Shown here piece by piece: positions 4,601-48,298 of a stretch of DNA of 64,000 nucleotides. Below the pieces are notes generated by a model. It was not told the origin of the DNA, did no database searches, and saw only the letters and a list, made by a program, of their open reading frames with translations. The DNA lies in the NCBI RefSeq assembly GCF_032118995.1, contig NC_092648.1, positions 511,001 to 575,000 on the forward strand, given 5' to 3'. Both the position numbers and the translations under genes were made by a program. Source of the DNA: Asterias amurensis (taxonomy: Eukaryota; Echinodermata; Asteroidea; Forcipulatida; Asteriidae). Position 1 is the stretch's first letter; each line of letters opens with the position of its first letter.

Positions 4601-4654
4601 AAAAAAAACCACAATTATAGACACTTTAACAATTGAAAATTCAAAGTTTTAAAT

Positions 4655-5215
4655 AAGGGAATCAATGTGTGGTGAAGAGGTTTTCAACTAGTGGTTTAAT
4701 CCCAACGAGGCCTGGTTCTTGATAATTTTACCGAGACGAAGTCGAGGTAAACTATAAAGAACCAGGCCTCGGCGGGTTTAAACCACTAGTTGAAAACCGA
4801 TTCAACACACTTTGATTCCCATTCATAAATACCTTTTCGGTCAAAAACATCATCACTTTTTGGTCAAAAAGTAAAATAAATGCAAAAATTATAATTGTTA
4901 AATGATTTCTTTCAACACAACACCCCTCCAGCTATGAAATGGTAAAGCCGTCTGCTGCCCTCGGGTAAACAACTCCTTATAAGGGAAAGCTGTGCGCGTA
5001 TCGCGTGATGTGGCACAACTTTTCAGCCGTTGCTCTCGACCAATAGGAATGAAGAAACTGTCTTATAAGAACAGGTTATTATACCACAAGGTCGCGTGTC
5101 ACGCCCATGAATTAACACGTTTTACGGGTCATAAACAAAGGTTTATACACAACCACGTGACGCGCTCTACACCAATAGGAATAGCGAAACTGTCTGAGGT
5201 ATTTATGAATAATTT
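4655..5215 (+). repeat. Fold-back repeat element, copy 1
   Basis: The first 170 bp fold back: GGGAATCAATGTGTGGTGAA at the start is matched by an inverted CAACACACTTTGATTCCC near 4823, with an inner inverted pair around AACCAGGCCTCG. A conserved tail of about 380 bp follows (AACTCCTTATAAGGGAA, GACCAATAGGAATG, TATTTATGAAT). Further copies lie at 9.77-10.32 kb (inverted) and 29.16-29.67 kb. No protein is encoded. Confidence 0.8.
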
Positions 5216-6396: not shown

Positions 6397-6927
6397 GTAT
6401 GTTGCAACACTTACAGTCCCAATTCCTTCTTCCATATCCAAAGTGAAGGATTCAGACTGACTTGGGCCAGTAGGCTCAAATGAAAAGTGCACTTTTAATG
6501 ATTAAAACTTTAAACTAAATCCATGCCATAAAACAGAACTTTGTAAAAACAACTCTAGAACTTTGCCCCTCCACCTTCCCAATGATAGGGTTAAGTGAAA
6601 CTTGTTTGAGGGAAGAATCATTATGACTGAAACCAAGCCTACAAAGTTCATCACTGGACTTAAAATGTTGGTTTGTTTTAACTGATGATAAATTTCACAC
6701 CAACACAAAAACCTCAAGCAAACTGTTAAAGGAATTTGACCCCACCCCCACCCCCCCCCCCCCATCTCCAATTACTGTTGCTTAAAATAATCTTGATTTG
6801 CACAAGTTCCTCTGATTATTTTTTTCAAATTGTTGGTGTTCTGCAAGTAAATTTGATACTAATTCTAAGCTGAAAGCATTTCATTTAAAAGTAAACATTT
6901 GAGGTCAACTGTTTCTTTTTTTCACAG

Positions 6928-7002
6928 GAAGGCTTGCCATCTTCAAAGATGTCTACACTTCAACTGGCCTGTGATTAAGGAACTGCTCTTTTTGATAAAA
7001 AG
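6928..7002 (+). pseudogene. Cassette exon B, copy 1
   Basis: Acceptor TTCACAG and donor AAAAG|GTAAAT. With a one-base start phase the exon is open (KACHLQRCLHFNWPVIKELL...), 75 nt, and it matches B3 residue by residue (KACYLQRCLINWTVIEELL). An open frame shared by two copies hints at past coding. It would follow exon A in phase (AG|G). Confidence 0.55.
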
Positions 7003-7155
7003 GTAAATTTGCGAAAAAGCAAATTAGTAAAACTTGCTCCTTAACAGAACTCGTATTTAAGCCTGATGTAAACATTACACAAAATCATTTAATGGGAAGC
7101 AAGTTTACATAATGCAAATGTTTTCAATTGTTTTGGGTGTAGCAAAGAAAAGTTG

Positions 7156-7233
7156 ACTAGAGTGGGATTTGAACCAACTACCTCCAGGTTAGCGTGCAAG
7201 CGCGCTACTCTACCAACTGAACTTTACTAGCCT
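7156..7233 (-). repeat. tRNA-like SINE head in the cassette unit
   Basis: On the minus strand TTCAGTTGGTAGAGTAGC resembles an A-box region and GGTTCAAATCCC a B-box. Equivalent sequences recur in later units at 13.7, 15.7 and 18.1 kb, so the element was present before the units multiplied. It is not a plausible functional tRNA. Confidence 0.6.
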
Positions 7234-7375
7234 GAGGATGGGGGCCTCCCTATTTTGTTGTCATCTTTGTTTGGTGTGCAAGTAAGAACCCATACAACCA
7301 TATGACTTTGAATTGGCTACAAATAATTTATTTGTTTTTAACAAAAAGAAGTGTGTTTGTTTTGTTTGCCTGCAG

Positions 7376-7474
7376 CTCCAGTCTCCGAAAACATCTACAT
7401 GTCAACAATTAAATGTGTGAGACCTGCTTATCATCATACAGCCTGGTATCCAGAACTACCTTCTCTGTAAACAG
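7376..7474 (+). pseudogene. Cassette exon A, copy 2
   Basis: Acceptor TTGCCTGCAG and donor AACAG|GTAAAT are intact. An indel relative to copy 1 shifts the frame, and no frame is fully open. Its B partner is missing: where B2 should lie, the sequence is replaced by unrelated DNA that includes a DLG fragment. Confidence 0.55.
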
Positions 7475-8215
7475 GTAAATTGAAATGCTACAATCTCAAT
7501 TCCTTCCTCAGTATCCAAAGTGAATGATTCAGAAAGACTTAGGGCCAGTAGGCGCAAATGACATTTGCCTAACACAGGGTCTCAATCCAATCTTATCAAG
7601 TACGACCAATTTGGACTAGAGTGATATCGAAGAAGGGGACATGGAAAGGTTGAGGCCACATGGTGGCAGAAATTGTTATAATTACTGCTTTTTTTACACC
7701 AGATCTTTAAAGAGAAAAACATTTTATTTTTCCAATAGTGGTCAACTACCAAAAGTGCCCTTTTAATGTAAATATTGGAAACTATATACATGTCTGCATA
7801 CAGACCTTGATACATGTACAATTGAGGCAAGTTTCTTGAACACAAATCTAGAACTTTTGAAAATCCACCCTTCCCTGTAAGTCTGAAAGGGCCCTTATAG
7901 GGTTATGTGAAACTTGTTTGAGAGAAGTATCAGTTTGATCCCAATCAACACACTCACAACATCATTTGATAAAAATTTATAAAACAAACTTACAATCAAG
8001 CTTCAACAAGAAAGCGTTTTGTTTTAAAGTTTCGAATAATTGAGCTTTTAATGCCTTCGCTGTGATGATCATATCAGTTAGGGTTAGGTCTGATGTGTTG
8101 TAATCAAAACACACTGAAAACAACAACTGTTTCTGAGCAAGGCTTTAACATCAAAATTGTTAAATAGTTAAATGAATATAACTAGATATAGCAAAGCATC
8201 ATGTATATCCATATC

Positions 8216-9767: not shown

Positions 9768-10323
9768 TCAGGATTCATAAATAGCTCAGACAGTTTCGCT
9801 ATTCGTATTGGTGGAGAGCGCGTCACGTGGGTGTATATAAACCTTTGTTTATGACCAGTAAAAAGTGTTGAAACATGGGCGTGACACAAGAGCTTGCACC
9901 TGTGCAAGACAGTTTCTTCTTTCCTATTGGTCGAGAGCAACGGCCAGGACAGTTGTGCCACATCACACGATACGTGCGACGCCCACAGCATTCCCTTATA
10001 AGGAGTTGTTTACCCGAGGGCAGCGGAGGGCGTTACCATTTCATAGCTGGAGGGGTGTTGTGTTGAAAGAAATCATTGAACAATTATAATTTTTGCACCT
10101 ATTTTACCTCTTGACCAAAAAGTGTCGATGTTTTTTGACCGAAAAGGTATTTATGAATGGGAATCAAAGTGTGTTGAATCAGTTTTCAACTAGTGATTTA
10201 AACCCGCCGAGGCCTGGTTCTTGATAATTTACCTGGACTTCGTCTCAGTAAAATTATCAAGAACCAGGCCACGTTGGGTTTAAACCACTAGTTAAAAACC
10301 TCTTCACCACACATTGATTCCCT
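9768..10323 (-). repeat. Fold-back repeat element, copy 2 (inverted)
   Basis: Reverse-complement copy of the element at 4655-5215, with the fold-back head at 10150-10323. Its flanks belong to the cassette unit, so it inserted into the array. Confidence 0.8.
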
Positions 10324-10481
10324 TATTGATGACAGCTGTTGAGTGCTTCAGGAAAAGTAGACAGTGAGCAAAATATGACGTTAAAAATACCTGTTTTCTT
10401 GTTCATAAAAGTTGATTTTTGTGGAGCTTGAAATATCTGTTTTAACAACAAGGTGTGTTTGTGTTGTTTTCTTGCCTGCAG

Positions 10482-12908: not shown

Positions 12909-13489
12909 GAGGGAATGTCAATTTGTGTGGGAAAAAATAAAAGAAAGGTTAAAAAAGAAAAGAAATGACAGACCAATGATTATGGTACCCTTTAATCATC
13001 AATTGAGCCTTATGATTGCACCCTCGGTCATCAAAGATAAACAGAGTGTGAATCTGTAGATAAAAGGAAGGGAAAGTTTTTTCCAATGGCGGTCATCTAC
13101 AAAAAGTGCACAGAACTTGGTAAAATGTACAACTGTGGCAAGTTTGATAAAAATAGCTCTGAACTTTGGAAAGCTCAAAGGAGCCACTAAGGTTTCCCCT
13201 TCCCTGTAAGTCTGAAAGTGTCAAGTCCAAAATTGTTTGCCAAAGTGTCCAATGGCTTTAAAATGTTGGTTTATTTTCACTGATAATAAAGTTCACACAA
13301 ACATTTTCAAGCGAACTGTTACAGGAATTCAATCTCCCCTTCCAATCACTGTTGCTTAAAATATTGTTGATCTGCTCAAGTTCCTCAGAATAGTTTTTCT
13401 AAATTATTTGTGTTCTGGAAGTATGTTTTATAAAAAATTTAAAGCAATGAAAGTAATTACTTGAAGTCTACTGTTTGTTTTTGTTACAG

Positions 13490-13555
13490 GAAGGCTTGCT
13501 ATCTCCAAAGATGTCTAATAAACTGGACTGTGATTGAGGAACTATTAGTAAAAAG
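13490..13555 (+). pseudogene. Cassette exon B, copy 3
   Basis: 66 nt between TTACAG and AAAAG|GTAGAT. It is open in the same phase as B1 (KACYLQRCLINWTVIEELL). Compared with B1 it has lost nine bases in the middle, which keeps the frame. Confidence 0.55.
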
Positions 13556-13719
13556 GTAGATTTGCAAAAAACCAAATTAGTAATATTTACTTCTAAAAAG
13601 AGATCAGAACTAAGCCTGATGCATACATTTCACAAAATGAATTAATAGAAGCAAGTTTACATGATGCAAAAAATCATCACACGTTGATTTTTAATTTCCT
13701 GGGGTTGAACAAAGAATAG

Positions 13720-13796
13720 AAAACTAGAGCGGGATTTGAACCAACAGCCTCCAGGTTAACGTGCTAGTGCTCTACTGTACCAACTACCTAGCCTGA
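13720..13796 (-). repeat. tRNA-like SINE head in the cassette unit
   Basis: Paralogous to the 7156-7233 copy, with GGGATTTGAACCAACAGCCT reading as an inverted B-box region. Confidence 0.55.
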
Positions 13797-14237
13797 TGTT
13801 TAGGGTCTCCCTATTTTGTTGACATCTTTGTTTGGGAGTGCCAGTAAAAAACTATACAACCGTTAACTGCCGTGTAACCAGGGATCGCACCCAAGTTTAT
13901 GATACAACCTGGGAAGCTACAGCCAGGGGATCACCTTGAGGGGATTTGAAATTTTTAGTTTTAAATATCAAGTTGTAAACCATGTGGCAAACTGACCGGG
14001 TACCATTGCAATCTACTCAGGATTGATGACACGTGTAGTGTTTCAGGAAAAGTGGAAAGAGAGCGAAATATTACTCTATATTTGTTTAGTTATTTATACC
14101 TGCTTTCATATTAATCTATATTTTTTAGTTATATTATACATGGTTGCCTGTTTTGATGTTAATATAAAATGATTTTCTAGGGCTAGAATTATTTGTTTAA
14201 AACAAAATGTGTACTATTTTTGTTTTCCTGCCTGCAG

Positions 14238-14320
14238 CTCTGGTCTCCAAATCTTCAACGTGTCAACAATTTAATGTCTGAGACCCACCTGGCATAAAGA
14301 ACCTCATTCTCTGTAAACAG
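14238..14320 (+). pseudogene. Cassette exon A, copy 4
   Basis: Acceptor CCTGCCTGCAG and donor AACAG|GTAATT are intact. Stops occur in every frame. The ACATGTCAACA core has become ACGTGTCAACA. Confidence 0.5.
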
Positions 14321-15018
14321 GTAATTTGAAACCCTACAATCCCAATTCCTTCTTCAGTATCCAAAGTGAAGGATTCAAAAGCATTTGGGCCAGTAGGCTC
14401 AAATGACAGTTGCTTATCACAGGGTCTCATTCCAATCTTATACAGTACAACCAATTTGGATTAGACTGGCATAGAATAAGAGGACATGGAGTGGTTGAGG
14501 CCCCATGGTTTCAGAAATTGTTAGCAATACTTGATCTTTTTGCATCACTTCCACCTTGAAATGATTTACTCTAAATTGCATTAAAACCCTAACATAAGAG
14601 GGGGTGGGCACATGGCACCCTCTACCATATTTGTGCTTGTAGCTTTAATTAGTATTTCCCTCAAAGTGAGAGGGAAAGTCAATCTGTGGGAAAACTTTGA
14701 AACAAAAATGTGACGGCCCCCCTTCCCTGTAAGTCAGAAAGGGTCCAGTCCCAGTATCAGTTTGACTAGAATCAAGCCTTCGACACTGAACTTTAAATAT
14801 TGGTTTGTTTAAACTGATAATAAGTTCACATCAACACAAAAACCACACGCAAACTGTAGCAGGAATGTTACCTCCCCCTCCAATCACTGTTGCTCAAAAT
14901 AATCTTGATCAGAGTTTCTCAGTCTTACTTAATTGTTGTGCTCTGGAAGTATTTTTTATAAAAAAATGGAAAGCAATGAAAGTAATTATTTGAAGTATAC
15001 TGTTTGTTTTTGTGACAG

Positions 15019-15115
15019 GAAGGCTTGCCATCTTCAAAGATGTCCACACTTCAACAAGTAGATGTCTAATAAACTGGACTGTGATTAAGGAACAACACTC
15101 TTTAGTCAAATTAAG
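15019..15115 (+). pseudogene. Cassette exon B, copy 4
   Basis: Acceptor TGTGACAG and donor TTAAG|GTAAAC. It carries an internal insertion (CAACAAGTAGATGTC) and an in-frame stop in the phase open in B1 and B3, so it cannot code as its sisters might. Confidence 0.5.
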
Positions 15116-15179
15116 GTAAACTTGCTAAAGAGCAAAAAAGTATAAAGGATTTGAGGCATTGCATGGTGAGGTATCAATG

Positions 15180-15509
15180 TATATTTGGTTTGCGGTAACA
15201 CCATGTGTGTGTCTACATGCCAGGTAGAATTGTTCTTAGAGAACTGTCTTGCTTTATTCTACTGCCGCAGAGATGATAATCGGAGGTTCGGGAGACTTCC
15301 CAAGTTCTGAAAAAAACTGTCCTGTTTTTTAACATTTACCAGTGCGGATGGTGAAGTAAATAGACTGGACTACTACTTTAGCTTGTAGGATCGTAATTAA
15401 CTGTAGTGACGCGGATTAAGTTCTGAATTGGTCTCAACGTTTCGACTAGCTTGCTCATCAGTCTCCTGACAAGTAGACACACACATGGTGTTACCGCAAA
15501 CCAAATATA
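15180..15509. repeat. TIR element of the GGTTTGCGGTAACACCATG family
   Basis: Terminal inverted repeats of about 37 bp: TATATTTGGTTTGCGGTAAC at the left end and its reverse complement at 15473-15509. The 330-bp interior has no coding capacity. Related diverged copies lie at 28318-28612 and 59526-59612, and an end fragment near 52420. It is a MITE-type non-autonomous DNA transposon. Confidence 0.8.
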
Positions 15510-15664
15510 CAGCAAAAAAGTAGTCTTCTCTCCTGAATAGAGCTCTCAGTTAAGCCTTATGTAAACAATACACAAAATTAATTAATGGGAAACGAGTTGA
15601 CGATGCAAACAATCATTAGGCATTGTTTTTTATTGTCTTTTGGGGATTTACCAAAGACAAATTT

Positions 15665-15742
15665 ACAATAGCGGGATTTCAACCAAAGGCCACCAGGTTA
15701 ATGTGCTAGCGTACTACTCCACCAACTGAACTATACTAGGCT
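15665..15742 (-). repeat. tRNA-like SINE head in the cassette unit
   Basis: Third paralogous copy, with inverted A- and B-box-like motifs and more decay than the 7.2 kb copy. Confidence 0.5.
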
Positions 15743-16098
15743 GATGCTGGGGGTTGTCTGATTTTGTTGGTAGCTTTGTTTGGGGTGAAAGTAAGAAGCC
15801 ATACAATCATTAACTTCCGTGTAGCCAGGGATTGCACCCAAGTTTATGATACAACCTGGGAAGCAGCAGCCAGGGAATCACCTTAAAGGGGATTTCAATT
15901 TTTTGTTTTAAATATCAAGTTGTAAACCACATGGCAAACTGACTGGGTACAATTGCAACCCACCTGGGTTGAGAAGAAAGGGAGAGAAATGTGATGTTAA
16001 ACATACCTGTTTCCTTGTTTATACAAAATTACTTTTTGTGGAGCTTCAAAAATTTGTTTGAACAACAAGGTGTGTTTGTGTTGTTTTCCTGCCTGCAG

Positions 16099-16190
16099 CT
16101 CAAGTCTCAAGAACATCTACATGTCAACAAGTATGAGACCCACTTATCATCATACAGCCTGATATCCAGAACTACAATCTCTGTAAACAG
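16099..16190 (+). pseudogene. Cassette exon A, copy 5
   Basis: Fully open in frame 0 with phase-2 exit (KSQEHLHVNKYETHLSSYSL...). The inverted copy at 24158-24238 is open in the corresponding frame and shares LSSYSL and RTT. This is the best evidence that exon A once encoded protein. Acceptor and donor are intact. Confidence 0.55.
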
Positions 16191-17451
16191 GTAAATTAAA
16201 ATCCTACAATCTCAATTCCTTCTACAGTATCCGAAGTGAAGGATTCAGAAGGACTTGGGCCAGTAGGCTCAAATGACAGTTACATATCACAGAGTCTCAT
16301 TCCAATCTTATAAAGTACAACCAATTTGGAGTGGAGTGACATAGATGAAGAGAAATGGAAAGCTTTAGGCCACATGCTGGCAGAAATTGTTAATAATACT
16401 TGATCTTTTGCATCACGTCCACCTTGAATTGGCTTGCTTAAGGACACAAGTGTCACGGCTAGGGATTCGAAGTGATGGAAATTTTTTCTTTAAAAATGGA
16501 AATTTTTTCTTTAAAAAATGCGATAGACTTAACAGCGCCCCCAACAGTTGTCATTTAAAGCCATTATGCACTTTCGGTAAACAGTATTGTCCAAGTCCCA
16601 CACTTGGTGTATCACAACTTATATATAAAATAACAAACCTGTGAAAATTTAGGCTCAATAGGTCCTCGGAGTCGGGAGAAAATAACGGGAAACTCCACTC
16701 CTGTTTTGCCGTGTCATGACATGTGTTTATAATAAATCCGTAATTCTTGCTATCGAGAATTGATATTGTTTTAATGTTTTCTCAAAAAGTAAAGCATTTC
16801 ACGGAATAATATTTCAAGAGAAGTCTTTCACCATTACCTTCTGTAAACCCTGTAGATTATTTGTAAATTTTGTATTTGGTTTTTTTCTGTACCGAAAGTG
16901 TATAATGGCTTTAACTACCGAAGGTGCTGCTTTATGTTAATTATTTGAATCGATAAATGTACCTCCAATCCATTACATTCCTTTTTCATCTTGCAGAACT
17001 TGGTAAATTGATAATTGCGGGGAGTTTCATGAAAATAACTCTAGAACTCTGGAAATTACAAAGTTTGCCACTATGTGCCCCCCCCCACTCCCATGGAAAT
17101 CTGAAAAACCCTTTCCTTTTAGGGTTAAGTGAAACTTTTTTGAGAGAAGAATCAATTTGACCGAAATCAGGCCTACAAACTCACAACTGAATTTTATAAT
17201 GTTTTTTTTAAACTGATAATAAAGTTCACACCAGCACCAAAACTTTAAGCAACAATTTGGAAATTGACCTCCCCCTCCAATCACTATTGCTCATTTTGAT
17301 TGATAACAGTCAATATAATCTTGATATGCACAAGTTTCTCAAAACAATTATTCCTGGGTTCCTTTTGCAAGACTTTTGATAAAAATTCTAAAGTGAAAGC
17401 AATTGATTTAAAAGTAAACAATTTGAAGTCTACTGTTTGTTTTTATTACAG

Positions 17452-17490
17452 GCAGGATTACCATCTCTAGAGAAGTCTACAAGTCAACAA
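17452..17490 (+). pseudogene. Cassette exon B, copy 5 (divergent)
   Basis: Acceptor TTATTACAG is followed by GCAGGATTACCATCTC, aligning with GAAGGCTTGCCATCTTC of other B copies. The donor is uncertain; CAACAA|GTAATA is the best choice. Stops fall in the phase used by B1 and B3. Confidence 0.4.
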
Positions 17491-17759
17491 GTAATAATCG
17501 ATTTGATGCCAATACTTTGAGCAACAAATCGTTTATTGCCATCAAGACAGTATGGTTGGTTGCCCGGGGCATGGGGCATAGTTTGCTTGTGGTTGGATGT
17601 TGGTACAATTTAACTGCCGATGCGTCGTAGTTTTGACAACATGAGGGTGCTCCTAAACATATTTGTATCACTTCCAATGGTACATTCATTTTGCTGTTAT
17701 TTAGAGTTACGCTTGCAATTTGTTTGAGTTTGTTGTTGTTGTTGTTTTGCTGTGTTCAC

Positions 17760-17972
17760 ACTTATTTGTTCAAAAATGTTGCAAACGAAGCGAAATAGAC
17801 CAAAGCAGAAACGCGGCCCATCAGGGCATTCTGCTAGGGTGCATGCGAGTTCATCGGTGTCTGCTTCGGCCTAAACCTGAAACCTCTACTCCTGTTATCA
17901 ATATGGAGCCTGCATCAGGACAGCGAGGGTCTATCACTGTGTTAGCCTCCCCACCAATCACTTCTGGAATGG
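17760..17972 (+). pseudogene. Terminal segment C of the + strand array
   Basis: Ends at a strong donor (GGAATGG|GTGAGT). It is homologous, inverted, to 23173-23245 and its upstream flank to about 23450. One frame is open across the segment (...PKPETSTPVINMEPASG...) and joins D in phase. The acceptor is not clear, so the start is approximate. Family unknown. Confidence 0.45.
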
Positions 17973-18112
17973 GTGAGTTGTATTCTGCTTTTGACTTTGA
18001 CTGGAACTGTCTCTCGTAAAAGGTAAATTCTTAAAACAAGCAAATTACTATCAAGTAAGGCCTAAACACATTACACAAAGTCAAGAAAAAGCTAAATTGT
18101 TTTTTCTTAGCA

Positions 18113-18182
18113 AGACAGCATGATTTGAACCAACAGCCTCTATCAGGTTAAAACACTGACAACTGAGCTATCTAGCTCTATG
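18113..18182 (-). repeat. tRNA-like SINE head in the cassette unit
   Basis: Degenerate inverted tRNA-like sequence (GATTTGAACCAACAGCCT) between C and D, matching the copies in the earlier units. Confidence 0.45.
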
Positions 18183-18479
18183 CTGACATTCTCCCTATTT
18201 TGTTTTTGGGTGCTATTTAAAAGCCATACAACTTTAAGCTGTGTAAAGCACACAGTTTACCATAATACAACCTGGGAAGCAAAAGCCAGGGGAACATCTT
18301 TAAGGATGCAACTTTTTAATTTCAAATATCAAGTTATAAACGTATGGTGAATAATAATAATTTTGGGTTGAACAAAGAAAATGATTTAGTTCTGGCGCAA
18401 GAAACATCTCCAAGTGATTTTGCGAATTTAAACTGTTTGGCATCCATAAAATGTCTTATCTGTTAACTTGATCTTTCAG

Positions 18480-18553
18480 AGCCAGAGATGCAGCCAATTG
18501 TTCGCCAAAATCAAGTGCAGAGGGAATTACCTCTACTCTACGGATATCGCTGA
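18480..18553 (+). pseudogene. Terminal segment D of the + strand array
   Basis: Acceptor ATCTTTCAG. Joined to C it reads EPEMQPIVRQNQVQRELPLL... and then a TGA at 18551. The inverted homologue D' reads EPGMQLFPKCNQVQRESALL in the same phase. Conserved phase in both arms suggests a real former, or still active, C-terminus. Confidence 0.5.
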
Positions 18554-18804
18554 GGGCTACACAGTAAAAAGGAGAGCATTGCAATTGCAAACATTAGCAT
18601 CTAGTCTTTAGGACACCTTAGCTGTTTTGTATTTTTGAAGTGATATTAATGAACAACCCAGTAATTTTTCTTCAATTGTGTAAAATATTTCATTTTGTAA
18701 CGATATAGTTAACATTTCTGTAAATAAGTGCACCATTTCAAGCAAGCACATATTATGCGTTTTTACGCGCTACTTGGCGATCTTAGGACCTTGGTGGTGT
18801 GGCA

Positions 18805-18857
18805 CTAACCCTAACCATAACCTTAACCCTAACCCTAACCTTAACCCTAATCCTAAC
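18805..18857 (-). repeat. Interstitial telomere-type repeat block 1
   Basis: Imperfect CCCTAA repeats on the + strand (TTAGGG on the minus strand), including CCATAA and CCTTAA variants, so it is partly decayed. Confidence 0.9.
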
Positions 18858-19182
18858 TAATTGTTTGGAATCCGGAAGTACAAAGCATGGGAAATTCCAG
18901 ACTTATTGCGAAAAGGGACTTGGACACATGCACGTGGCATGTGGGGTCTTAGCCCGGCCGGTTGTTTCACATCTGGTGGTTGATCTTAAAGGTGCACTCC
19001 GGTGTTATCACAAACTATGGTTGACCAAACGGGTTAGTTCCTAGTCTTGGCCATGTGACTAGGGACCGCGTTCGGGAGTAGGGGGTGCCCCCCTCAGACG
19101 GGGGCATGGACCTGGGCGCTCTTTAACTAGAGTATGAGGGACCTGATGATCTCCTGGGCGTGTTTTAGGGATGTCTTGGTAC

Positions 19183-19300
19183 TAACCCTAACACTAACCC
19201 TAACCTTTACCCTAACCCTAACCCTTACCCTAACCCTAACCCTTACCCCATCCCTAACCCTAACCCTAACCCTTACCCTAACCCTAACACTAACCCTAAC
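19183..19300 (-). repeat. Interstitial telomere-type repeat block 2
   Basis: About 118 bp of CCCTAA repeats with scattered variants (CACTAA, CCTTTA, CCTTAC). Same orientation as block 1. A 290-bp non-telomeric segment lies between the two blocks. Confidence 0.92.
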
Positions 19301-19872
19301 ATTGTTTGGAATCCGGAAGTACAAAGCATGGGAAATTCCAGACTTATTGCGAAAAGGGACTTGGACACATGCACGTGGCATGTGGGGTCTTAGCCCGGCC
19401 GGTTGTTTCACATCTGGTGGTTGATCTTAAAGGTGCACTCCGGTGTTATCACAAACTATGGTTGATCAAACGGGTTAGTTCCTAGTCTTGGCCATGTGAC
19501 TAGGGACCGCGTTCGGGAGTAGGGGGTGCCCCCCTCAGACGGGGGCATGGACCTGGGCGCTGATTTAATATAGTATGAGGGCCCTTATGATCTCCCGGGC
19601 GTGTCGGGGCTGGTATCCTGGGACCTGCACGTGGTGGCCCTGCTTTTAACTAGCCTTACCAGGATGATATAGCCAAAATTAAGAAGTAAATTAATGAAAT
19701 TGCTTGAAATGGTGCATTTATACAATACCTAACACTCGACTTTCATGATATAATTTTTATCCAATGTAATTCAGGCACAACCGTTCAGTTAATTAGCTTA
19801 TTTACTCATTGTTTTTATTTAAGCTGTACTGATTGAAAACAAATAAAATTAGTACATTGCTGTGCCAGGCAT

Positions 19873-21487
19873 TTACTCTTTTGACCGATTTGGAACCATT
19901 TTATTTTTCGGCCAATTTTTAAAAATGGGCCTTTTTGAGCCAGAATATTTGGTTTAAAAAACTGCAAGGGGTTAAACTTGGTCTTCTGACCGATTTGAAT
20001 CCAATTTTTTTTTCGGCCAATTTTTAAAAATGGCCCTTTTTGAGCCAGAATTTTTGGTTTAAAAAACTGCAAGGGGTTAAACTTGTTCTTTTGACCGATT
20101 TGAATCCATTTTATTTTTCGGCCAATTTTTAAAAATGGGCCTTTTTGAGCCAGAATTTTTGGTTTAAAACACTGCAAGGGGTTAAACTTGTTCTTTTGAC
20201 CGATTTTGGAACCATTTTATTTTTCGGCCAATTTTTAAAAATGGGCCTTTTTGAGCCAGAATTTTTGGTTTAAAAAATTGCAAGGGGTTAAACTTGTTCT
20301 TTTGACCGATTTGAATCCATTTTATTTTTCGGCCAATTTTTCAAAATGGGCCTTTTTGAGCCAGAATTTTTGGTTTAAAAAACTGCAAGGGGTTAAACTT
20401 GTTCTTTTGACCGATTTTGGAACCATTTTATTTTTCGGCCAATTTTTAAAAATGGGCCTTTTTGAGCCAGAATTTTTGGTTTAAAAAACTGCAAGGGGTT
20501 AAACTTGTTCTTTTGACCGATTTTGGAACCATTTTTTTTTTTTCGGCCAATTTTTAAAAATGGGCCTTTTTGAGCCAGAATTTTTGGTCTAAAAAACTGC
20601 AAGGGGTTAAACTTGTTCTTTTGACCGATTTGGAACCATTTTATTTTTCGGCCAATTTTTAAAAATGGGCCTTTTTGAGCCAGATTTTTCGGTTTAAAAA
20701 ACTGCAAGGGGTTAAACTTGTTCTTTTAACCAATTTTGGAACAATTTTATTTTTCGGCCAATTTTTAAAAATGGGCCTTTTTGAGCCAGAATTTTCGGTT
20801 TAAGAAACTGCAAGGGGTTAAACTTGTTCTTTTGACCCATTTGTATCCATTTTATTTTTCGGCCAATTTTTAAAAATGGGCCTTTTTGAGCCAGAATTTT
20901 CGGTTTAAAAAACTGCAAGGGGTTAAACTTGTTCTTTTAACCAATTTTGGAACAATTTTATTTTTCGGCCAATTTTTAAAAATGGGCCTTTTTGAGCCAG
21001 AATTTTCGGTTTAAGAAACTGCAAGGGGTTAAACTTGTTCTTTTAACCAATTTTGGAACAATTTTATTTTTCGGCCAATTTTTAAAAATGGGCCTTTTTG
21101 AGCCAGAATTTTCGGTTTAAGAAACTGCAAGGGGTTAAACTTGTTCTTTTGACCCATTTGTATCCATTTTATTTTTCGGCCAATTTTTAAAAATGGGCCT
21201 TTTTTAGCCAGAATTTTCGGTTTAAAAAACTGCAAGGGGTTAAACTTGTTCTTTTGACCCATTTGTATCCATTTTATTTTTCGGCCAATTTTTAAAAATG
21301 GGCCTTTTTGAGCCAGAATTTTCGGTTTAAAAAACTGCAAGGGGTTAAACTTGTTCTTTTGACCGATTTGGATCCATTTTATTTTTCGGCCAGTTTTTAA
21401 AAATTCGCCTTTTTAAGCCAGGATTTTTTGTTAAAAAAACTGCAAGGGGTGAATCTTGTTCTTTTGACCGATTTGGGATCATTTTAA
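19873..21487. repeat. 105-bp tandem satellite, about 16 copies
   Basis: The CGATTT/CCATTT-type junction recurs at 19879, 19988, 20092, 20197, 20304, 20408, 20513, 20621, 20727, 20832, 20937, 21042, 21147, 21252, 21357 and 21463. The monomer is 105 bp; some copies are 106 or more through an extra T. From about 20.7 kb two variant types (AACCAATTTTGGAACAAT and GACCCATTTGTATCCAT) alternate, forming a partial higher-order dimer. Because 105 is divisible by three, long frames stay open on the minus strand (35-residue period around FFKPKILAQKGPFLKIGRK); they break at the 106-bp monomers. It fills the loop of the palindromic core. Confidence 0.95.
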
Positions 21488-22127
21488 GCCGGGGAGGGCG
21501 CTCTACATATGCCAAGTATTTTGGAGGCCAAGTACTTCCGCCCACAAGAGGGCGCTATAACGAAAACTTTTAATCAATCAAATTTTCCGAAAATGTTTTA
21601 ATTTGGAGGCCGAATACTTACGACCACTGGAGGGCGCTATAACGAAGACTTTTAGGCAACCGGGAAAATGTGTTTGGTTACAGCGCCCTCTTTTGACTGA
21701 ACTTTACATTATTTTGCTGTTATAACTGCCCTGTTTAACCCCACCCGACCCAAAAAGATAATTTTAATTTGTCTAATTATGAATGTAGGACTGTCTGCCA
21801 GTTTATGACAAAAGTGGCTGCTTAATTTAACCAACCAATGTACTCCAACTTAAGAAATGAAACACAGCTAGACTCCATATCATTTTATTTAGCAAATTTA
21901 TTACACAAAAATCAGCAAGACTTCATAAGGAGATAGTGCCGGTGCCATGACAGGCACAGGAATACTTTTTTTGTACACCAAGGTTTATATTTTTAATGGC
22001 AGTAGGGGCCTTGGCTACAGTTGTAAAATCAAAACCGAGGCTGCTTCTTTCAGCCACAAAAGTTGCATCTGCATAATAACATTTATTGTTTGTTAATTAA
22101 ATAAAAGTAAAGTTCTGGTATATATGC
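21488..22127. other. Unique part of the palindrome loop
   Basis: Contains GAGGGCGCTATAACGAA twice (near 21547 and 21634) and an inverted AGCGCCCTC near 21690. This small motif cluster is unlike the satellite. No gene is seen. Confidence 0.45.
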
Positions 22128-22720
22128 ACAATTGCAAGCAATTTAATTAATTTACTTCTTAATTTTGGCTATATCATCCTGGTAAGGCTAGTTAAAAGCA
22201 GGGCCACCACGTGCAGGTCCCAGGATACCAGCCCCGACACGCCCGGGAGATCATAAGGGCCCTCATACTATATTAAATCAGCGCCCAGGTCCATGCCCCC
22301 GTCTGAGGGGGGCACCCCCTACTCCCGAACGCGGTCCCTAGTCACATGGCCAAGACTAGGAACTAACCCGTTTGGTCAACCATAGTTTGTGATAACACCG
22401 GAGTGCACCTTTAAGATCAACCACCAGATGTGAAACAACCGGCCGGGCTAAGACCCCACATGCCACGTGCATGTGTCCAAGTCCCTTTTCGCAATAAGTC
22501 TGGAATTTCCCATGCTTTGTACTTCCGGATTCCAAACAATGTTAGGGTTAGGGTTAGGGTTAGGGTTAGGGTTAGGGTTAGGGTTAGGGTTAGGGTTGGG
22601 GTTAGGGTTAGGGTTAGTGCCGCACCACCAAGGCCCTAAGATCGCCAAGTAGCGCATAAAAACGCATAATAATGTGCTTGCTTGCAATGGTGTACTTATT
22701 TACAGAAATGTTTTAAGTAG
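22128..22720. repeat. Right arm of palindromic core
   Basis: Reverse complement of 18715-19715 with one telomere-unit copy instead of two. The span 22128-22540 is almost identical to the left arm (one C/T difference within the GC-rich 290 bp); 22618-22720 is more diverged. Confidence 0.9.
22541..22617 (+). repeat. Interstitial telomere-type repeat block 3
   Basis: Twelve to thirteen nearly perfect GGGTTA units on the + strand. It is cleaner than the left blocks and opposite in orientation. Confidence 0.93.
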
Positions 22721-22864
22721 TTTAAAAACCTAATTGAAAAACACCATTAAAACATGTCAGGCCTAATAACACATCTAAAAATTTAAGACAAAATACAGGG
22801 TGGTTCATTCATAACTTGACAATGAACAGCTATAGTGTGTTCTGATTACTAGATGCTGATGTTT

Positions 22865-22965
22865 TCATAAAAGTTGCTTTCCCTTTAGTGTAGCCTTCAG
22901 CGATGTCAGTAGAGCTGATTCCCTCTGCACTTGATTGCACTTGGGGAACAGCTGCATGCCTGGCT
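22865..22965 (-). pseudogene. Terminal segment D' (inverted array)
   Basis: Acceptor CTTTCAG is followed by EPGMQLFPKCNQVQRESALL and a run on to TGA at 22865-22867. Homologue of 18480-18553, with a longer C-terminus because the stop falls later. Confidence 0.5.
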
Positions 22966-23172
22966 CTGAAAGATTAAGTTCAAAGACTAACAGTTAAAAA
23001 AACAAAGCATTCTGATTATTTGCATCATGTTAATTTACTTTCCATTTCTTGGTTTTGTGTAAAGTCTAACTTAAGCGGCAATTTAGGTGTAAATATGACT
23101 AATTGCCTTTTAGGAATGTACCTTTTACTAGAGAGTGCAGTTACTAAATCAAAATTGAAAGTAGAAACTCAC

Positions 23173-23245
23173 CAATTCCAGAAGTGACAGACAGTTGCTG
23201 TCCCAAAACAGGTCCATGTTGACAACAGGAGTAGAGGTTGAAAAC
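23173..23245 (-). pseudogene. Terminal segment C' (inverted array)
   Basis: Acceptor TCTTTAG and donor AATTG|GTGAGT. It matches the end of C (TCTACTCCTGTTGTCAACAT). A one-base difference from C alters the frame in the second half. Homology continues upstream to about 23450. Confidence 0.5.
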
Positions 23246-24157
23246 CTAAAGATCGTGGGGTCTTTAAGATAATGCCCGAATCGGCCGCGTATCTGCCGCT
23301 TAGGTCTACCAACCGCCGCAATCGACTTTTAGTCGGTTGGAAGTGCGCTTAGGGCGAGGCATTCTCAAACCAATAAATGTGAGCACGCATACAGACAGAA
23401 AAACATCAACAAACACAAACAAATTGCAAGCAAAACTTTAAATAACAGCAAAACGAAGCAGAGATTAAAAATTTAACAAAACTGATTTTCTAAAGCTCAA
23501 GAAAAAAGGTAACACTAGGACTGCTCAAATAACAGTGAAGTGTATTTTGCCTTGTGGAACATCGGAAGCCCTCCTGTAACAAAAGAAACGGTAGACTTAA
23601 AAAATTACTTTCAAATGAATTGCTTTAACTTTAGAATGTTTTCCAAAACACTTGCAGAACACCAACATTTTGGAAAATCTATTCCAAGGAGAGCAGATCA
23701 CTGTTGTGGTCCGTAAAAGTTTTTCCAGATTATTTTTAAGCAACATCGATTGGAGGGGGAGGGGGGTTACATTTTTTATGACAAAAAATTTGTTTGTGTT
23801 TTTCCATTTGAATATTGACATTCCCAAGGTGCAATATAAGGCCTAATTGATGACTTCACTTTGATAGTTTGAACCTAACATACATGCTGAAATAAACAAA
23901 ATCAAAATGGACGATGCATATGGTGGCCATTTTGAATTCCCAACAATATAATATGTGACAAATCACTTCCGTTTTTTTTAGGAAACTACAAAAATTATGT
24001 GGAAAGTGTTTAAAAATTTGTTTTGATCAGTTTACCCAAGTTCAACAAATAGTTGCTATGGTAACAGCTGACCTAGATATTTTTACAATAATTATGACCC
24101 AAGATAATTATCGGTCACAAATTTGGTGCTGGAAATTGTGTAAGGGTTTCAATTTAC

Positions 24158-24238
24158 CTGTGTAGTTCTTAATGCCAGGCTGTATGATGATAAAGTGGAT
24201 CCAAGACATTCAATTGTTGACACTAGATGTTTTGGAGA
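24158..24238 (-). pseudogene. Cassette exon A' (inverted array)
   Basis: Acceptor TGTCCGCAG and donor ACACAG|GTAAAT. Open in frame 0 (SPKHLVSTIECLGSTLSSYS...), matching the open frame of A5. It is the only A-type copy found in the right arm. Confidence 0.55.
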
Positions 24239-24692
24239 CTGCGGACAAATCAAAAGAAACACACCTTTTTGTTCAAAAACGAATATTTCTGAACCTTACT
24301 TGGTTCATCGTAGGACCACGAAAGTCATTATTTGTATAGGCTCTAATCAAGAAAACAGTTATGAGTAGCTAAAGGGGTATTTTCTCAAAATTCCAATTTA
24401 TCTAATACAATACTGATGTCATCAATTCTTAGGAGACTACAAACTTAACACCAAAGCATATCTCTACTTGTTTAACTTTTGTAACAATTATGTAAGAGCT
24501 GTTGTATTTGAGCAGCAAAAGATGTACTTTTTCAATTTTGTTATAATTTGGAATAGAACTCTCTATTGAGGGACTAATTCAAATCAAGAAGTATCTGTGA
24601 TAAGCTGGTCCTTATTATTTTCTTATCCTTTATTTTTACGAAGTAAATTATTGTATTTTTGCCTGGCCAGTAGTATAATTTGTTACAACCAA

Positions 24693-25471
24693 GGGCCAAG
24701 TTTCATAAAGCCTGTAAGCACAATAAACTTGCTAAGCCCAGCCAAATCTACCTAGTGTAAACTGGATACCAGCCAAAATTGCCAAAGTATTACTGATGCA
24801 ACTGGTGCCACACACAACTGTTTTGCTTAGCAAAGAAATCAACTGACTAGCATTTTCTGCTGAACAGCTTTAGGAAATTGGGCCCACATCATTTAGGCCT
24901 TTTCCCTCGTGTAAATATTCAGTACTTGTTGAGTGCAAATAAGAAAAAGGGACAGAGAAGCCAGTTATTTGTTTTCTTGTGTCATTATAAACCTGTGTGT
25001 ATTGCAACCCCCGGTCAAGGCTACAGTATTTTTGTCTGGTCAGAAGTATAATTTGTTACAACCAAGGGCCCCGTTTCATAAAGCCTGCAAGCACAAAAAA
25101 ACTTGCCAAGCACAGCCAAATTTTCCTTAGCAGAAACTGGTTTACCAGCCACAATTGCAAAAGGTTTACATTGTTGCAACTGGTTCCCCACACAATTGTT
25201 TTGCTTAGCAAAGAAATCAACTGAGTACCATTTTCTGCTGAACAGCTTTAGGAAATTGGGCCCACATCATTTCTCAGCAGGGCCCAATTTCATTAAGCTG
25301 TGAAGTGGAAAATACTGCGTTGAAAATTACTTTTCTAAGCAAAAATTAGGTGGGAACATGAGTGGCAACAATGTTCTTCTTCTGACAATTTGGCTGGTAA
25401 CTTGTCAGCTAAGCAAGATTGTTCCATTCTTAGCAACATTTTCTGCCTACAGGCTTTGTGAAATAGGGCCC
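24693..25471. repeat. Three successive GGGCCC-family palindromic MITEs
   Basis: Copies at about 24693-24885, 25068-25262 and 25280-25471. Each runs from GGGCC(C)A-TTTCAT-AAGC to the inverted AGGAAATTGGGCCC (or AAATAGGGCCC). The first two are closely similar, including the flanking TATAATTTGTTACAACCAAG, so they probably arose by local duplication. Confidence 0.75.
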
Positions 25472-25612
25472 TTATTGCATTCAAGTATTTCTTTACAAGA
25501 TTATTTTCCAATTTCAACAGCAACATCATGTTGACATTCCGCACAGTTACTCAAGAAATCAATTGGTACTAAGTGTAATTTAATATTAAAGGTTACCTTT
25601 TTGAAAAATTAC

Positions 25613-25700
25613 CTCACTGGAGAGTACTTAAGCTCAATTATCATGGGACAGGCTTGAAAACTGGTTGACGGAATGACCTCTTCGAAGATGGTAAGCTTAA
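25613..25700 (-). pseudogene. Cassette exon B'5 (inverted array)
   Basis: Acceptor ATTGCAG and donor GTGAG|GTAATT. One frame is open throughout (KLTIFEEVIPSTSFQACPMI...). Related to the other B' copies by sequence and spacing. Confidence 0.5.
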
Positions 25701-26204
25701 CTGCAATAAAAATAAAATGCGCAATTCGCAGAATTAAGTATTAAAAATCATTATCCATCATTAACAAAGTGTGTCAGATAGTTTGCTGTTACGTTAGGAA
25801 TTGTTCTGCTGGTTCATTAAAAACAAACGTAAAAGTTTAGTTTTTCAAGACAAAAAGTTACCAAACAACTAAAGACAAATAATTATTTTTGATTGCTGCA
25901 AAATCGCCGGAGCATTTGTTTTTTGCATAAAAAACTCATGGACTTTATCAGTGAGCCAAGGATCACACTCATGTCTACAGTACCATCTGGGAAGTCGTCA
26001 GTCAGTTTCCCTTGTGATTTATTACTTGATATTTGAAGAAAAAAAAACCCCATAAAACTAGTGATCCCTTTGCTGCTGCCTCCGTGGTTGTATTGTAGAC
26101 TTGAGTGCGATCCCCAGCTATTATAAGGCAGTTACAGTTTGTATGGCTTCTAAGATTGGCAAACCAAAACTACAAATGGCCAAATAAGGAGACAGTGTAA
26201 GCAT

Positions 26205-26285
26205 TAGGGCTCCATAGCTCAGTTGGAAACTGCCAGTATGCAAATCTGGGGGTCCCAGGTTCAAGTGCTGACCAAGTCCATTTTT
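26205..26285 (+). repeat. tRNA-like SINE head
   Basis: CTCCATAGCTCAGTTGG resembles an A-box region and GGTTCAAGTGC a B-box. It is the mirror-oriented relative of the tRNA-like sequences in the left array. The anticodon arm does not look functional. Confidence 0.55.
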
Positions 26286-26416
26286 CTATTATATAGTTCA
26301 ACCTACACTTGGGAAACAGCTCATACTGATTGTTTACATGCATGTCATTTTGCTTTGAATTCTGCCTATAGTATTTGGGTATAACTTTTAAAACTTCACT
26401 TTTTATGGGAACTTAC

Positions 26417-26499
26417 CTCTGGAAAATGCTTTCCTCTCTTTGATAGACCAGTCTTTGGCATCGTTGATGATTAGATCTCTTAGGACATGGTAAGCCTTA
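26417..26499 (-). pseudogene. Cassette exon B'4 (inverted array)
   Basis: Acceptor ATTGCAG and donor CCAGAG|GTAAGT. Open in the one-base-start phase (KAYHVLRDLIINDAKDWSIK...), similar in pattern to B1 and B3 of the left arm. The best-looking coding candidate of this array. Confidence 0.5.
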
Positions 26500-27114
26500 C
26501 TGCAATACAAACAAACGCACTTTAAAATCATCACCCAATAAAACACATTAGATTCAGAAAAATGGCTTTTAACTGAGGATTTGTTTTGTACTTTCGAATG
26601 AAACTAAATAAAGTAAACAAACATCAAAGGGGGGGTTCTTGGAGTAGGTTGTACTTAGAAGTATTATTTTTTAAAATGTAAACCAAATATCAAGCATCGC
26701 TTATTATAAGAGATGTCAGAGATACCTTAAAACAATCTCTTCAGGGCGGGTGTTGGTATGATCTTCATTATCAGTGAGCTCTCAGAATTTAGCTTTGGGC
26801 AAATATCACACAAACTTTTAATTACCAAAAGTTGAACATAAAAACATAAAAAAGTTTCTCAGAGAATTATTAATAATAGTAATTTGGGAGGCTTATCATC
26901 CTTACTCGCAGCTAACAGCTAAATTGCGAAGGACGCGGCTACACTGTGTTCGAGAAGCAGGCATGTAAGGGCGCCTTTGGCAGCCAGCCACATCAAACCA
27001 ACATGACCTCAGAGCACAGCCAAGATCAAAAGTGTTTGATTTTTCCAGGGAGGGAGGGAGGAAAACCAGATGGTCTGGAAAACCCTTGTGGCACAGCAGA
27101 GAGCCAACACACAA

Positions 27115-27195
27115 CTCATCTCACATATGACCCTAGCCGAGAATCGAACCGGGGTCACCTTGGTGAGAAATAGCGCTTTAGGCACAAGCCAACCA
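27115..27195 (-). repeat. tRNA-like SINE head
   Basis: GAGAATCGAACCGGGGTCAC on the + strand is an inverted B-box. A degenerate A-box lies near 27180. Confidence 0.45.
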
Positions 27196-27562
27196 TGTTA
27201 ACAGAAGTAATTTTACTGCTTAGAAAAAAGGGGTTAAAACAAGAGCAAAGTGTTTTTTGAGATGTCATAACCAATGAAAATTTCTCTTAATGATGGGTGC
27301 TTGGATGATGTTATTATCTATGAGTCTTAAGATGAAACTTATCAAATAAATTGCATGCAAATTAAATATGCTGCTGTGTATGCTTCTGATTCCCAAAGGT
27401 TTTTATTGGCATTTATTTTAAGTGTTTTACCAAATATAAACGGACCATTTAAAACCAGACTGATCAGTTCCCCACCTAGCCTGTTTATCCTGAACATATT
27501 GCTACACAACAAACACATAAGACTAGCTGTCAATTAGTTTAATTGACTCTTTAGGAACTAAC

Positions 27563-27697
27563 CTTTCACTGGAGAGCAGCTCCTATACCATAAGGCAGTC
27601 TTGAACATCGTCAAGAGAGTGTAGCTCCTTTTTTATAATACAGTCTCTGATACTATACTTGACGGCAGGTAGGTATCTCTTTGTGATTGAAGACTTA
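27563..27697 (-). pseudogene. Cassette exon B'3 (inverted array, long)
   Basis: Acceptor CTTGCAG and donor GAAAG|GTTAGT. At 135 nt it is the longest B-type copy. The B' phase is open for about 38 codons (KSSITKRYLPAVKYSIRDCI...) before a TAG near the end. Confidence 0.45.
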
Positions 27698-28317
27698 CTG
27701 CAAGACAAACAATGCATAGTTTGCAAACTTTACTGTTAATACTAATTATCCATTATTGAAACAGTTAGATTCAGGTAAAATAAATTTAACTTGCCATTTT
27801 TCTGTAAGTTTAGAGAGAAGGTATTGGTTTGATAATCACTCTTAAAACTAATGGTAAAAAGAACCTTTGGCCAGAAGCCTACAGCAGATTTTGATAGTAT
27901 AAAACATTTTGAGAAAAATTTCTGTTTGAAGTAATGTGGTTATTGTAAACAAACGACAGGCGCTCACGCCTGTCAGATTGTGTTATACCTGTAGGGAAAT
28001 ACTCTCACTGGATTTTCAATGACATCTCAAAAATGCGAGCACTCTATATTCAGATGCTAGTTTTTTGTGTGCACCATCTTCATTTTTACAGGACCAAAAC
28101 AATCAAATTGTTCAAAAAAAGCAAAGGTATACTTTGCCTGTAAACAAAATTTAAAAAAATGGTCTATAATTCAAAATAATTGAAGTAAACAAACACTAAA
28201 AACAAAGTTTTTGTAAACACTTGTCACATCAGGATTTGGTTGATCGCTGGAAAAAACAGAGGAGCAGTTTGTGGAGATCAATGTAAAAAGCCTGAAATGT
28301 GTGATTCATCTTAAATA

Positions 28318-29156: not shown

Positions 29157-29675
29157 TAAGGGAATCAATGTGTGGTGAAGAGGTTTTCACTTAGTGGTTT
29201 AATCCCAACGAGGCCTTGTTCTTGATAATTTTACCGAGACGAAAACCACTAGTTGAAAACCTGTTCAACACACTTTGATTCCCGGTTCATAAATACCTTT
29301 TCGGTCAAAAACATAAACACTTTTTGTTCAAAAAAGGAAAATAAATGCAAAAATTATAATTGTTCAATGATTTCTTTCAATACAACACCCCTCCAGCTAT
29401 GAAATGGTAAAGCCCTCCACCGCCCTCGGGTAAACAACTCCTTATAAGGGAATGTTGTGCGCGTCGCACATATTGCGTGATGTGACACAACTGTTTCAGC
29501 AGTTGCTCTCGACCAATAGGAATGAAGAAACTGTCTTATAAGAACATATGCAAGCTCGCGTGTCATGCCCATGTTTCAACACTTTTTACTGGTCATAAAC
29601 AAAGGTTTATACACACCCACGCGACGCGCTCTCCACCAATAGGAATAGTGAAACTGTCCAAGGTATTTATGAATA
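29157..29675 (+). repeat. Fold-back repeat element, copy 3
   Basis: Same family as 4655-5215. The fold-back head at 29157-29283 has lost part of its inner palindrome; the tail is intact to GTATTTATGAAT. Confidence 0.8.
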
Positions 29676-44280: not shown

Positions 44281-44345
44281 TTCAATATTTTTGGATCCAA
44301 GGTTACAGCATACAATAAACAACCAATGTCAATCCGAATCACCTT

Positions 44346-44733
44346 AAAGGAACACGTTGCCTTGGAACGGACGAGTTGGTAAAAACAAAAGCGTTTGTAA
44401 CCGTTTTTTATATAATGCATATGGTTGGAAAGATGTTTTAAAAGTAGAATACAATGATCCACACAAGTTTGCCTCGAAATTGCGTGGTTTTTCTTCTACT
44501 GTGCGAACTAACACGGTCAGCCATTTATGGGAGTCAAAATTTTGACCCCCATAAATGGCCGACGTGTTAGTCGTCGAGGTAAAAGGAAAACCACGCAATT
44601 TCGAGGCATGTTTGTGTGGATCATTGTATTCTACTTTTACAACATCTTTCTACCCATATGCATTTCATAAAAAACGGTTACAAACGCTTTTCAAAGACCA
44701 ACTCGACCGATCCAAGGCAATGTGTCCCTTTAA
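44346..44733. repeat. Long-armed fold-back element, copy 1
   Basis: Starts AAAGGAACACGTTGCCTTGG and ends with the inverse (CCAAGGCAATGTGTCCCTTT). The arms fold along nearly their whole length about a centre at 44540 (TTTTGACCCCCATAAATGGC). Open frames on both strands are a by-product. Confidence 0.88.
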
Positions 44734-44960
44734 AACTACTCCTTATTGATTACTATTTTGACCTCCTCTTCTACAACTTAGAAAACTCATTCCTTGCCAA
44801 ACTGTGTTTCACTCATTAGAGACATAAATTATCCTGATGTGTCTGAAAACACTTGACTACAAGACTTCTAGCTAGTCTAACCCGACAACATAATACATTC
44901 ATTCAGGGACTTCTAGCTAGTCTAACCCGACATATATACTCATTCAGGGTATTCGTTTCA

Positions 44961-47930: not shown

Positions 47931-48298
47931 TAAATGAACACGTTGCCTTGGATCGGTTGAGTTGGTCTATAAAAAGCGTTTGTAACCGTTTGTTATAAAA
48001 TGCATGTGATTAGAGATATATTTCAAAAGTAGAATACAATGATCCACACAAGTATCACTCGAAATTGCGTGGTTTTCCTTTTACCTCGTAGACTAACTCA
48101 GTCGGCCATTTATGGAAATGGCCAACCGTGTTAGTTTGCAAAGTAAAAGGAAAACCACGCAATTTCGAGGCCAATTTGTGTGGATCATTGTATTCTTCTT
48201 TTTAAACATCTTTCCAACCACATGCATTTTATAACAAACGGTTACACACGCTTTTTATAGACCAACTCGTCCGATCCAAGGCAATGTGTTCCTTTAAG
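47931..48298. repeat. Long-armed fold-back element, copy 2
   Basis: Same family as 44346-44733 (ACACGTTGCCTTGGATCGG at the left end, the inverse at the right). The centre is shortened. Confidence 0.88.

Follow-up and report, generated by a model that had tools for sequence, protein, structure and literature searches.

Gene conversion from arm to arm is known in inverted repeats, for example in the palindromes of sex chromosomes, and sea urchins carry a foldback transposon named TU. Interstitial telomeric sequences are short TTAGGG-type tracts found where related copies are empty, as set out in part of one report (PMC7215372). The foldback element Tetris of Drosophila virilis is described, in part of its published account (PMC4079207), as modular inverted repeats with tandem repeats and without conserved open reading frames (ORFs), and sea urchin foldbacks are mentioned alongside it. 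A locus that shares features with all three systems is described here from the starfish Asterias amurensis, within a stretch of 64,000 nucleotides (the window; RefSeq assembly GCF_032118995.1, contig NC_092648.1, here C1:511001-575000). It resembles Tetris in its modular inverted repeats, its tandem repeats, its lack of conserved ORFs and the satellite arrays of a common unit elsewhere (PMC4079207 in part), and it resembles the interstitial telomeric sequences formed at double-strand breaks in primates, rodents and horse in carrying a telomeric tract where related copies are empty. With sex-chromosome palindromes it shares near-identical core arms and diverged flanks. The locus probably belongs to a family of inverted repeats that arose by duplication, gained telomere-like tracts in a defined slot and spread them by further duplication and gene conversion.

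Within the window locus, positions 19301-19715 match the reverse complement of 22126-22540 without gaps at 411 of 415 positions, and three of the four mismatches fall within the final 20 bases. The ungapped inverted match extends over 507 bp at 97% identity (19224-19730 and 22111-22617), and both BLAST and a repeat finder returned an inverted match of about 500 bp (97-98%). Inverted matches in 20 mononucleotide shuffles of 18000-23500 did not exceed 39 bp. The left arm contains a tandem duplication of a repeat block together with 304 bp of core (18860-19159 vs. 19301-19600, 97%). A first-pass annotation of this DNA had reported inverted near-copies of about 410 bp (placing the right one at 22128-22540), with CCCTAA repeats outside the left and GGGTTA repeats outside the right; the copies are real and the tandem repeat search bears out the orientation of the repeats. 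Its statement that the flanks beyond these blocks are more diverged applies outside 18715 and 22710, where identity between the 1-kb flanks falls to 73% over aligned columns (lower if gaps are counted), but not to the first 80-90 bp directly outside the blocks, where the arms are still about 94-95% alike. BLAST gives 81.6% for 18459-19163 against 22237-22986, a stretch that takes in the outer core copy.

The searched assembly (491,506,623 bases in 23 contigs) contains at least 55 matches of the 415-bp arm (40 of 117 candidates scored); the genome report, in part, gives a total of 491,537,102 bases on 22 chromosomes that range from 13.43 to 38.00 Mb (PMC10625585). A 32-mer from the arm has 55 matches at up to three mismatches and its reversed control has none. 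Grouped by position, these 55 matches form 22 loci on C1 (10 loci), C2, C4, C6 (3), C8 (3), C10, C14 and C16 (2). Both strands are matched in 19 of the 22 loci, with the plus-strand matches left of the minus-strand matches in 19 out of 19, and the remaining three (C4, C6:26.09 Mb and C14) have matches on a single strand. Ten kb were fetched around 20 of the 21 non-window loci, giving 21 examined loci with the window, and inverted matches longer than 100 bp occur in all 20, some of them confined to the central array. Segmental duplicates are found among the loci, for example C4:0.43 Mb and C6:26.09 Mb (96-98% over most of the 10 kb). The window locus and its neighbour at C1:0.21 Mb (L009) are inverted duplicates (87-96% over about 16.9-23.7 kb), as are L023 (C8:0.70 Mb) and L025 (C8:6.63 Mb). 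A further locus, L012 (C1:2322001-2332000), forms a palindrome whose arms, each about 3.4 kb long, are 96.7% identical; this palindrome is probably younger than that of the window. A subtelomeric family was considered and set aside. In its favour, eight of the 22 loci have a contig end no more than 1.1 Mb away (binomial p = 0.0008, assuming 22 chromosomes and approximate locus centres, with a permutation that keeps the same eight contigs) and ten of the 22 belong to the initial 5.4 Mb of C1, but the loci are not independent, and for two of them the contig end is 6.6 and 11.3 Mb away.

Each arm contains a module of about 0.5 kb, here called module E, that consists of a 27-base inverted end, about 90 bp, a variable slot, a 304-bp GC-rich core, about 120 bp and a second inverted end (table 1). 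Across 35 aligned arms conservation rises from about 0.80-0.91 just outside 22711 to 0.96 inside, the slot excepted, and a degenerate reverse complement of the 27-base end closes the arm near 19725 and 22118. The 27-mer has 82 genome matches at up to three mismatches, 49 of them away from the 22 loci, and seven of these outlying places (L031-L037) were fetched. Each of the seven has a core related to that of the window (67-69% over about 350-400 bp, inverted in one case). Another inverted end, with three to seven errors, follows at a distance of 470-994 bp in the most favourable reading, a tandem array lies in the vicinity, and every BLAST match between them and the window arm falls within 22127-22711, inside the module. 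The flanks are homologous too among L034 and its relatives (L034 and L039-L042, five copies), and the inverted repeat at L036 (C11) extends beyond the module. The seven outlying copies and the contexts of L034 and L036 mark module E as a recurrent modular repeat.

The slot was compared among 39 usable arms from the 21 loci. Telomere-like repeats are absent from 18 of them, in which the arm sequence runs unbroken across the slot, and present in 21. Between the 27-base end and the core lie 94-98 bp in the repeat-free arms vs. 122-232 bp in the filled arms; a typical empty arm reads ..GGCACT-CGA-ATTGTTTGG.. and a typical filled arm ..GGCACT-(AACCCT)n..AACTA-ATTGTTTGG.., and the repeats start 70-93 bp within the conserved module, not at its edge. 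Ten of the 21 filled arms contain mainly CCCTATTAA, a 9-base variant, in the slot, and four of these ten (L011L, L013L, L014L and L015R) have a second, inner block made of CCCTAA. Contig C1 starts with (CCCTAA)n at positions 1-606 (among the matches listed), and the unit in the slot is therefore the real telomere unit. The repeats are an insertion or expansion inside a module of about 0.5 kb with short inverted ends, a TTAGGG-type tract at a non-terminal site that is empty in related copies, as is characteristic of interstitial telomeric sequences. The alternation between CACT-CG-AATTG and CACT-[AACCCT]n..AACT-AATTG fits a one-step insertion with a small deletion or microhomology. Slippage is possible as well because in all five copies of the L034 group a different tandem unit (15-26 bases) begins 58-64 bp behind the 27-base end, at nearly the same position.

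Cores were compared with flanks (1 kb outside the module) for individual arms, denoted L or R after the locus, with W for the window. Seven out of 17 two-armed loci have cores that are at least 97% identical (W 0.984, L009 0.981, L012 0.998, L015 0.979, L018 0.995, L023 0.972, L025 0.998). The L012 flanks are 99% alike as well, so its arms may be a recent whole duplication. The cores of L016R and L017L are only about 70% like the opposite arm and the L015 arms, and the 80 bp beside the 27-base end are about 90-95% alike there. The clearest case of conversion is L025, where the two cores are 99.8% identical to each other and 97.4% and 96.3% identical to their flank-defined counterparts in L023. 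The flanks pair across the two loci (L023L-L025R 0.973, L023R-L025L 0.958) vs. 0.80-0.81 within each locus (80.5% at L025). In approximately unbiased (AU) tests the core data reject L025L with L023R (p = 0.0011) and the flank data reject L025L with L025R (p = 2.6e-5). Only within the converted tract do the two L025 arms resemble each other more than they resemble their counterparts, and most simply the left core was overwritten by the right core.

At the window the case for conversion rests on the flank data. The cores of WL, WR, L009L and L009R form one clade (support 100/99), whereas the flank tree places WL and L009R beside L016R and L017L (93/93) and WR and L009L in another clade, and the flanks reject a clade of the four arms (AU p = 1.65e-26). 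This conflict between flank and core trees supports, but does not prove, a conversion in the common ancestor of the window locus and the C1:0.21 Mb locus. L016R and L017L lack telomere-like repeats; the left arm of the window therefore probably received its repeats together with the converted core. The window arms as they stand are not closer to each other than to their counterparts. The suggestion of the first-pass annotation that the inner arms are being homogenised by gene conversion is thus clear at L025 and supported for the common ancestor of the window locus and L009, but no conversion since that duplication is needed at the window.

The explanation that we consider probable starts from about 22 paralogous loci, mostly inverted pairs in which two copies of module E face each other across a 105-bp repeat array, multiplied through segmental and inverted duplication as the flank homology shows. 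Tracts of (CCCTAA)n or (CCCTATTAA)n would have been gained in the slot of one E lineage, in agreement with the coexistence of filled and empty arms, the empty slot being presumably the older state; the gain would have come about either when repeats were inserted at a break or when a slippage-prone stretch expanded. Tract and core would then have spread to further arms by duplication and gene conversion, including conversion from arm to arm within a locus as seen for the core at L025 and, with the support described above, in the ancestor of the window locus. In favour of this explanation, the presence of repeats needs two changes on the core tree vs. four on the flank tree (29 common arms). A stricter version, in which an interstitial telomere tract was born once at a break or slippage site and has since been a passenger of gene conversion within and between loci, is a tentative proposal that we consider rather doubtful. 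If it is true, loci with clearly different flanks on several chromosomes carry telomere-type DNA, some in outward-facing pairs, through this process.

Several observations weigh against the duplication-and-conversion explanation in one or another of its parts. Core and flank identities are uncoupled: in 698 out of 703 arm pairs the core shows the greater similarity, and core identity is about 89% even where flanks are unalignable, so that constraint or exchange between loci must contribute too. Conversion is not general, because ten of the 17 two-armed loci have cores between 0.70 and 0.94. The core data alone do not reject WL and L009R with L016R and L017L (AU p = 0.136), and the core counterparts of the window locus and L009 are closer (0.991 and 0.998) than the arms within each locus (0.984 and 0.981); a window conversion would therefore predate the duplication. 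Nor do the core data reject L025R with L023L (AU p = 0.173), as expected if the right core overwrote the left. The core tree requires a nested loss of repeats at L023 and L025, unless it is wrong there, and in the slot capture of telomeric repeats at a break and growth of a slippage-prone stretch would fit equally. The same 698 pairs agree with an account in which no conversion occurred and purifying selection, stronger on module E than on the flanks, explains everything. Constraint does not reverse the order seen at L025, where the arms are closer than counterparts in the core and not in the flank, and selection as the sole cause is improbable.

The first-pass annotation had also proposed that a telomere-capped linear unit (a linear plasmid, minichromosome or chromosome-end fragment) was inserted or spread. 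The geometry of the window copy suits such a unit, as does the match of the slot repeats to the start of C1, and the annotation had named copies without telomeric repeats as evidence to the contrary. Such copies make up almost half of the arms compared, with the arm uninterrupted, which leaves the capped unit unsupported. Furthermore, the CCCTATTAA variant dominates nearly half of the filled slots, the conserved module continues past the repeats into a flank common to the 35 aligned arms, the left window arm carries two blocks in tandem, and none of the 55 arm 32-mer matches lies closer than 88 kb to a contig end, where copies of a capped element would be expected. A capped unit is accordingly hardly credible: the outward-facing "telomeres" of the window result from two inverted copies of module E and are not former chromosome or linear-plasmid ends. 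Near-identical inverted arms are also prone to assembly error, and the arms could have been collapsed or duplicated in the assembly. The recurrence of inverted matches in all 20 other fetched loci, many with diverged flanks, and the lack of any N in these loci and in window positions 14001-28000 make such an artefact extremely unlikely.

A more serious alternative is that module E, or the pair of modules with its array, is a non-autonomous DNA transposon of the foldback type or similar to miniature inverted-repeat transposable elements, mobilized by an unknown transposase. Its 27-base inverted ends are nearly invariant (the 82 matches noted above) while the seven outlying cores have diverged to 67-69%, all seven outlying copies have the second end of a terminal inverted repeat, similarity to them is confined to the module, and satellite arrays lie nearby as in Tetris (PMC4079207 in part). 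However, no target-site duplication can be defined; the outer limit of the module is ambiguous, and the single outlying context for which five copies were compared has homologous flanks as well. ORFs of at least 130 amino acids were taken from 30 sources and the longest 40 listed; 14 ORFs were run through Pfam and gave only a CNH domain (window 59596-59982), tubulin domains and one reverse transcriptase, with no transposase among them, the genome itself not having been searched for transposases. We consider a transposon quite possible but lean against it.

The family also differs from the described systems. Unlike Tetris and other foldbacks, the family has no demonstrated target-site duplication, its centre is a 105-bp array, and its flanks are often inverted duplicates themselves, which simple transposon insertion does not give. 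The 105-bp unit also has many matches over stretches of about 5-17 kb at C6:23732072-23741426, 24251266-24256877 and 24459022-24476055, with no arm 32-mer match nearby; these are possibly satellite grown from such inverted-repeat loci. Unlike in the interstitial telomeric sequences of mammals, filled and empty sites are here paralogues within one genome; 21 of the 39 arms have the tract, and in ten of these the slot holds mainly a 9-base variant. Sex-chromosome palindromes differ in that the near-identical tract of the window is only about 0.4-0.5 kb long and stops at the inner module edge, and in that only seven of the 17 loci here reach 97% in the core. A literature search on telomere-like repeats with miniature inverted-repeat elements and microsatellites found no account of the combination. 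The analysis removes the tempting but wrong reading as captured linear DNA. Because a single genome here offers filled slots beside empty ones, and converted arms beside unconverted ones, the birth and spread of interstitial telomeric repeats can be followed in it.

Table 1. Features of the window locus and of the flanking units (window positions unless a locus is named).
Feature	Position	Strand	Basis or remark
Outer ~90 bp of module E in left arm, with 27-base inverted end 18719-18745	18715..18804	+	Conservation step at corresponding right-arm border, 35 aligned arms; 27-mer genome matches
Telomere-like block 1, CCCTAA type, left arm	18805..18857	+	Tandem repeat search (85% matches); slot comparison
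Outer copy of 304-bp GC-rich core, tandem duplicate	18860..19163	+	Direct repeat, 97% identical to 19301-19600
Telomere-like block 2, CCCTAA type, left arm	19182..19300	+	Tandem repeat search (84% matches)
Inner core copy and inner end of module E; degenerate inverted end ~19696-19725	19301..19725	+	411/415 for 19301-19715; alignment of both module ends
105-bp tandem array, ~15 copies, between arms	19877..21486	+	Tandem repeat search; unit present elsewhere in genome
Right arm, core and inner end of module E	22118..22540	-	Inverted match to left arm
Telomere-like block, GGGTTA on + strand, right arm, purest of three	22541..22617	-	Tandem repeat search (97% matches)
Outer part of module E in right arm, with 27-base inverted end 22678-22704	22618..22710	-	Conservation step, 35 aligned arms; 27-mer genome matches
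Left flank, inward-pointing gene-like unit; 87-91% to inverted neighbour locus C1:0.21 Mb	16910..18714	+	Locus comparison
Right flank, related diverged inward-pointing unit; 95% to neighbour locus C1:0.21 Mb	22711..23665	-	Locus comparison; aligned arms
Gene-like unit copies, ~1.1-1.7 kb, splice-like borders	6586-7700, 13196-14700, 14719-16430, 17120-18480	+	By eye
Gene-like unit copies, ~1.1-1.7 kb, splice-like borders	22960-24320, 24900-26160	-	By eye
tRNA-Asn, good gene	L017:1438-1509	+	In flanking unit
tRNA-Asn, good gene	L016:8259-8330	-	In flanking unit
tRNA-Asn, degenerate relic	13721-13793	-	21.7 bits, under gathering score 29; in flanking unit

Outside module E the window locus is flanked by gene-like units that point inward (about 17.1-18.5 kb on the plus strand and 24.3-23.0 kb on the minus strand, with more at 6.6, 13.2 and 14.7 kb), so that copies aim at the centre of the inverted repeat from both sides. 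Judged from their arrangement in the sequence, the convergent units could produce long double-stranded RNA. The terminal exon-like piece was not accepted as coding, as its frame is not kept across the 35 aligned arms. The window gave no match with ARAGORN or with Rfam at gathering scores. In the 20 fetched loci ARAGORN detected tRNA-Asn genes, in just L016 and L017; Rfam, run at gathering scores on 11 of the 20, recovered that of L017.

Other repeats and frames were noted in and around the loci. Two partly self-complementary repeats of about 370-390 bp lie at window positions 44344-44735 and 47927-48300; the neighbour locus has a 97.9% match to 44344-44733 at L009:1247-1636. A repeat of about 550 bp occurs in three copies that are 83-89% alike, in both orientations (4652-5210, 9773-10327 and 29157-29675), and a 28-bp tandem repeat at 54570-54725 has 5.6 copies with 100% matches. 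The Pfam tubulin domains belong to an uninterrupted tubulin-like frame at L027:1575-2975, about 4 kb from the L027 arm. The reverse transcriptase frame (RVT_1, L029:5822-6667) lies in the flank of the C1:0.21 Mb locus, at least 6 kb away, and may be of the LINE (long interspersed nuclear element) type.

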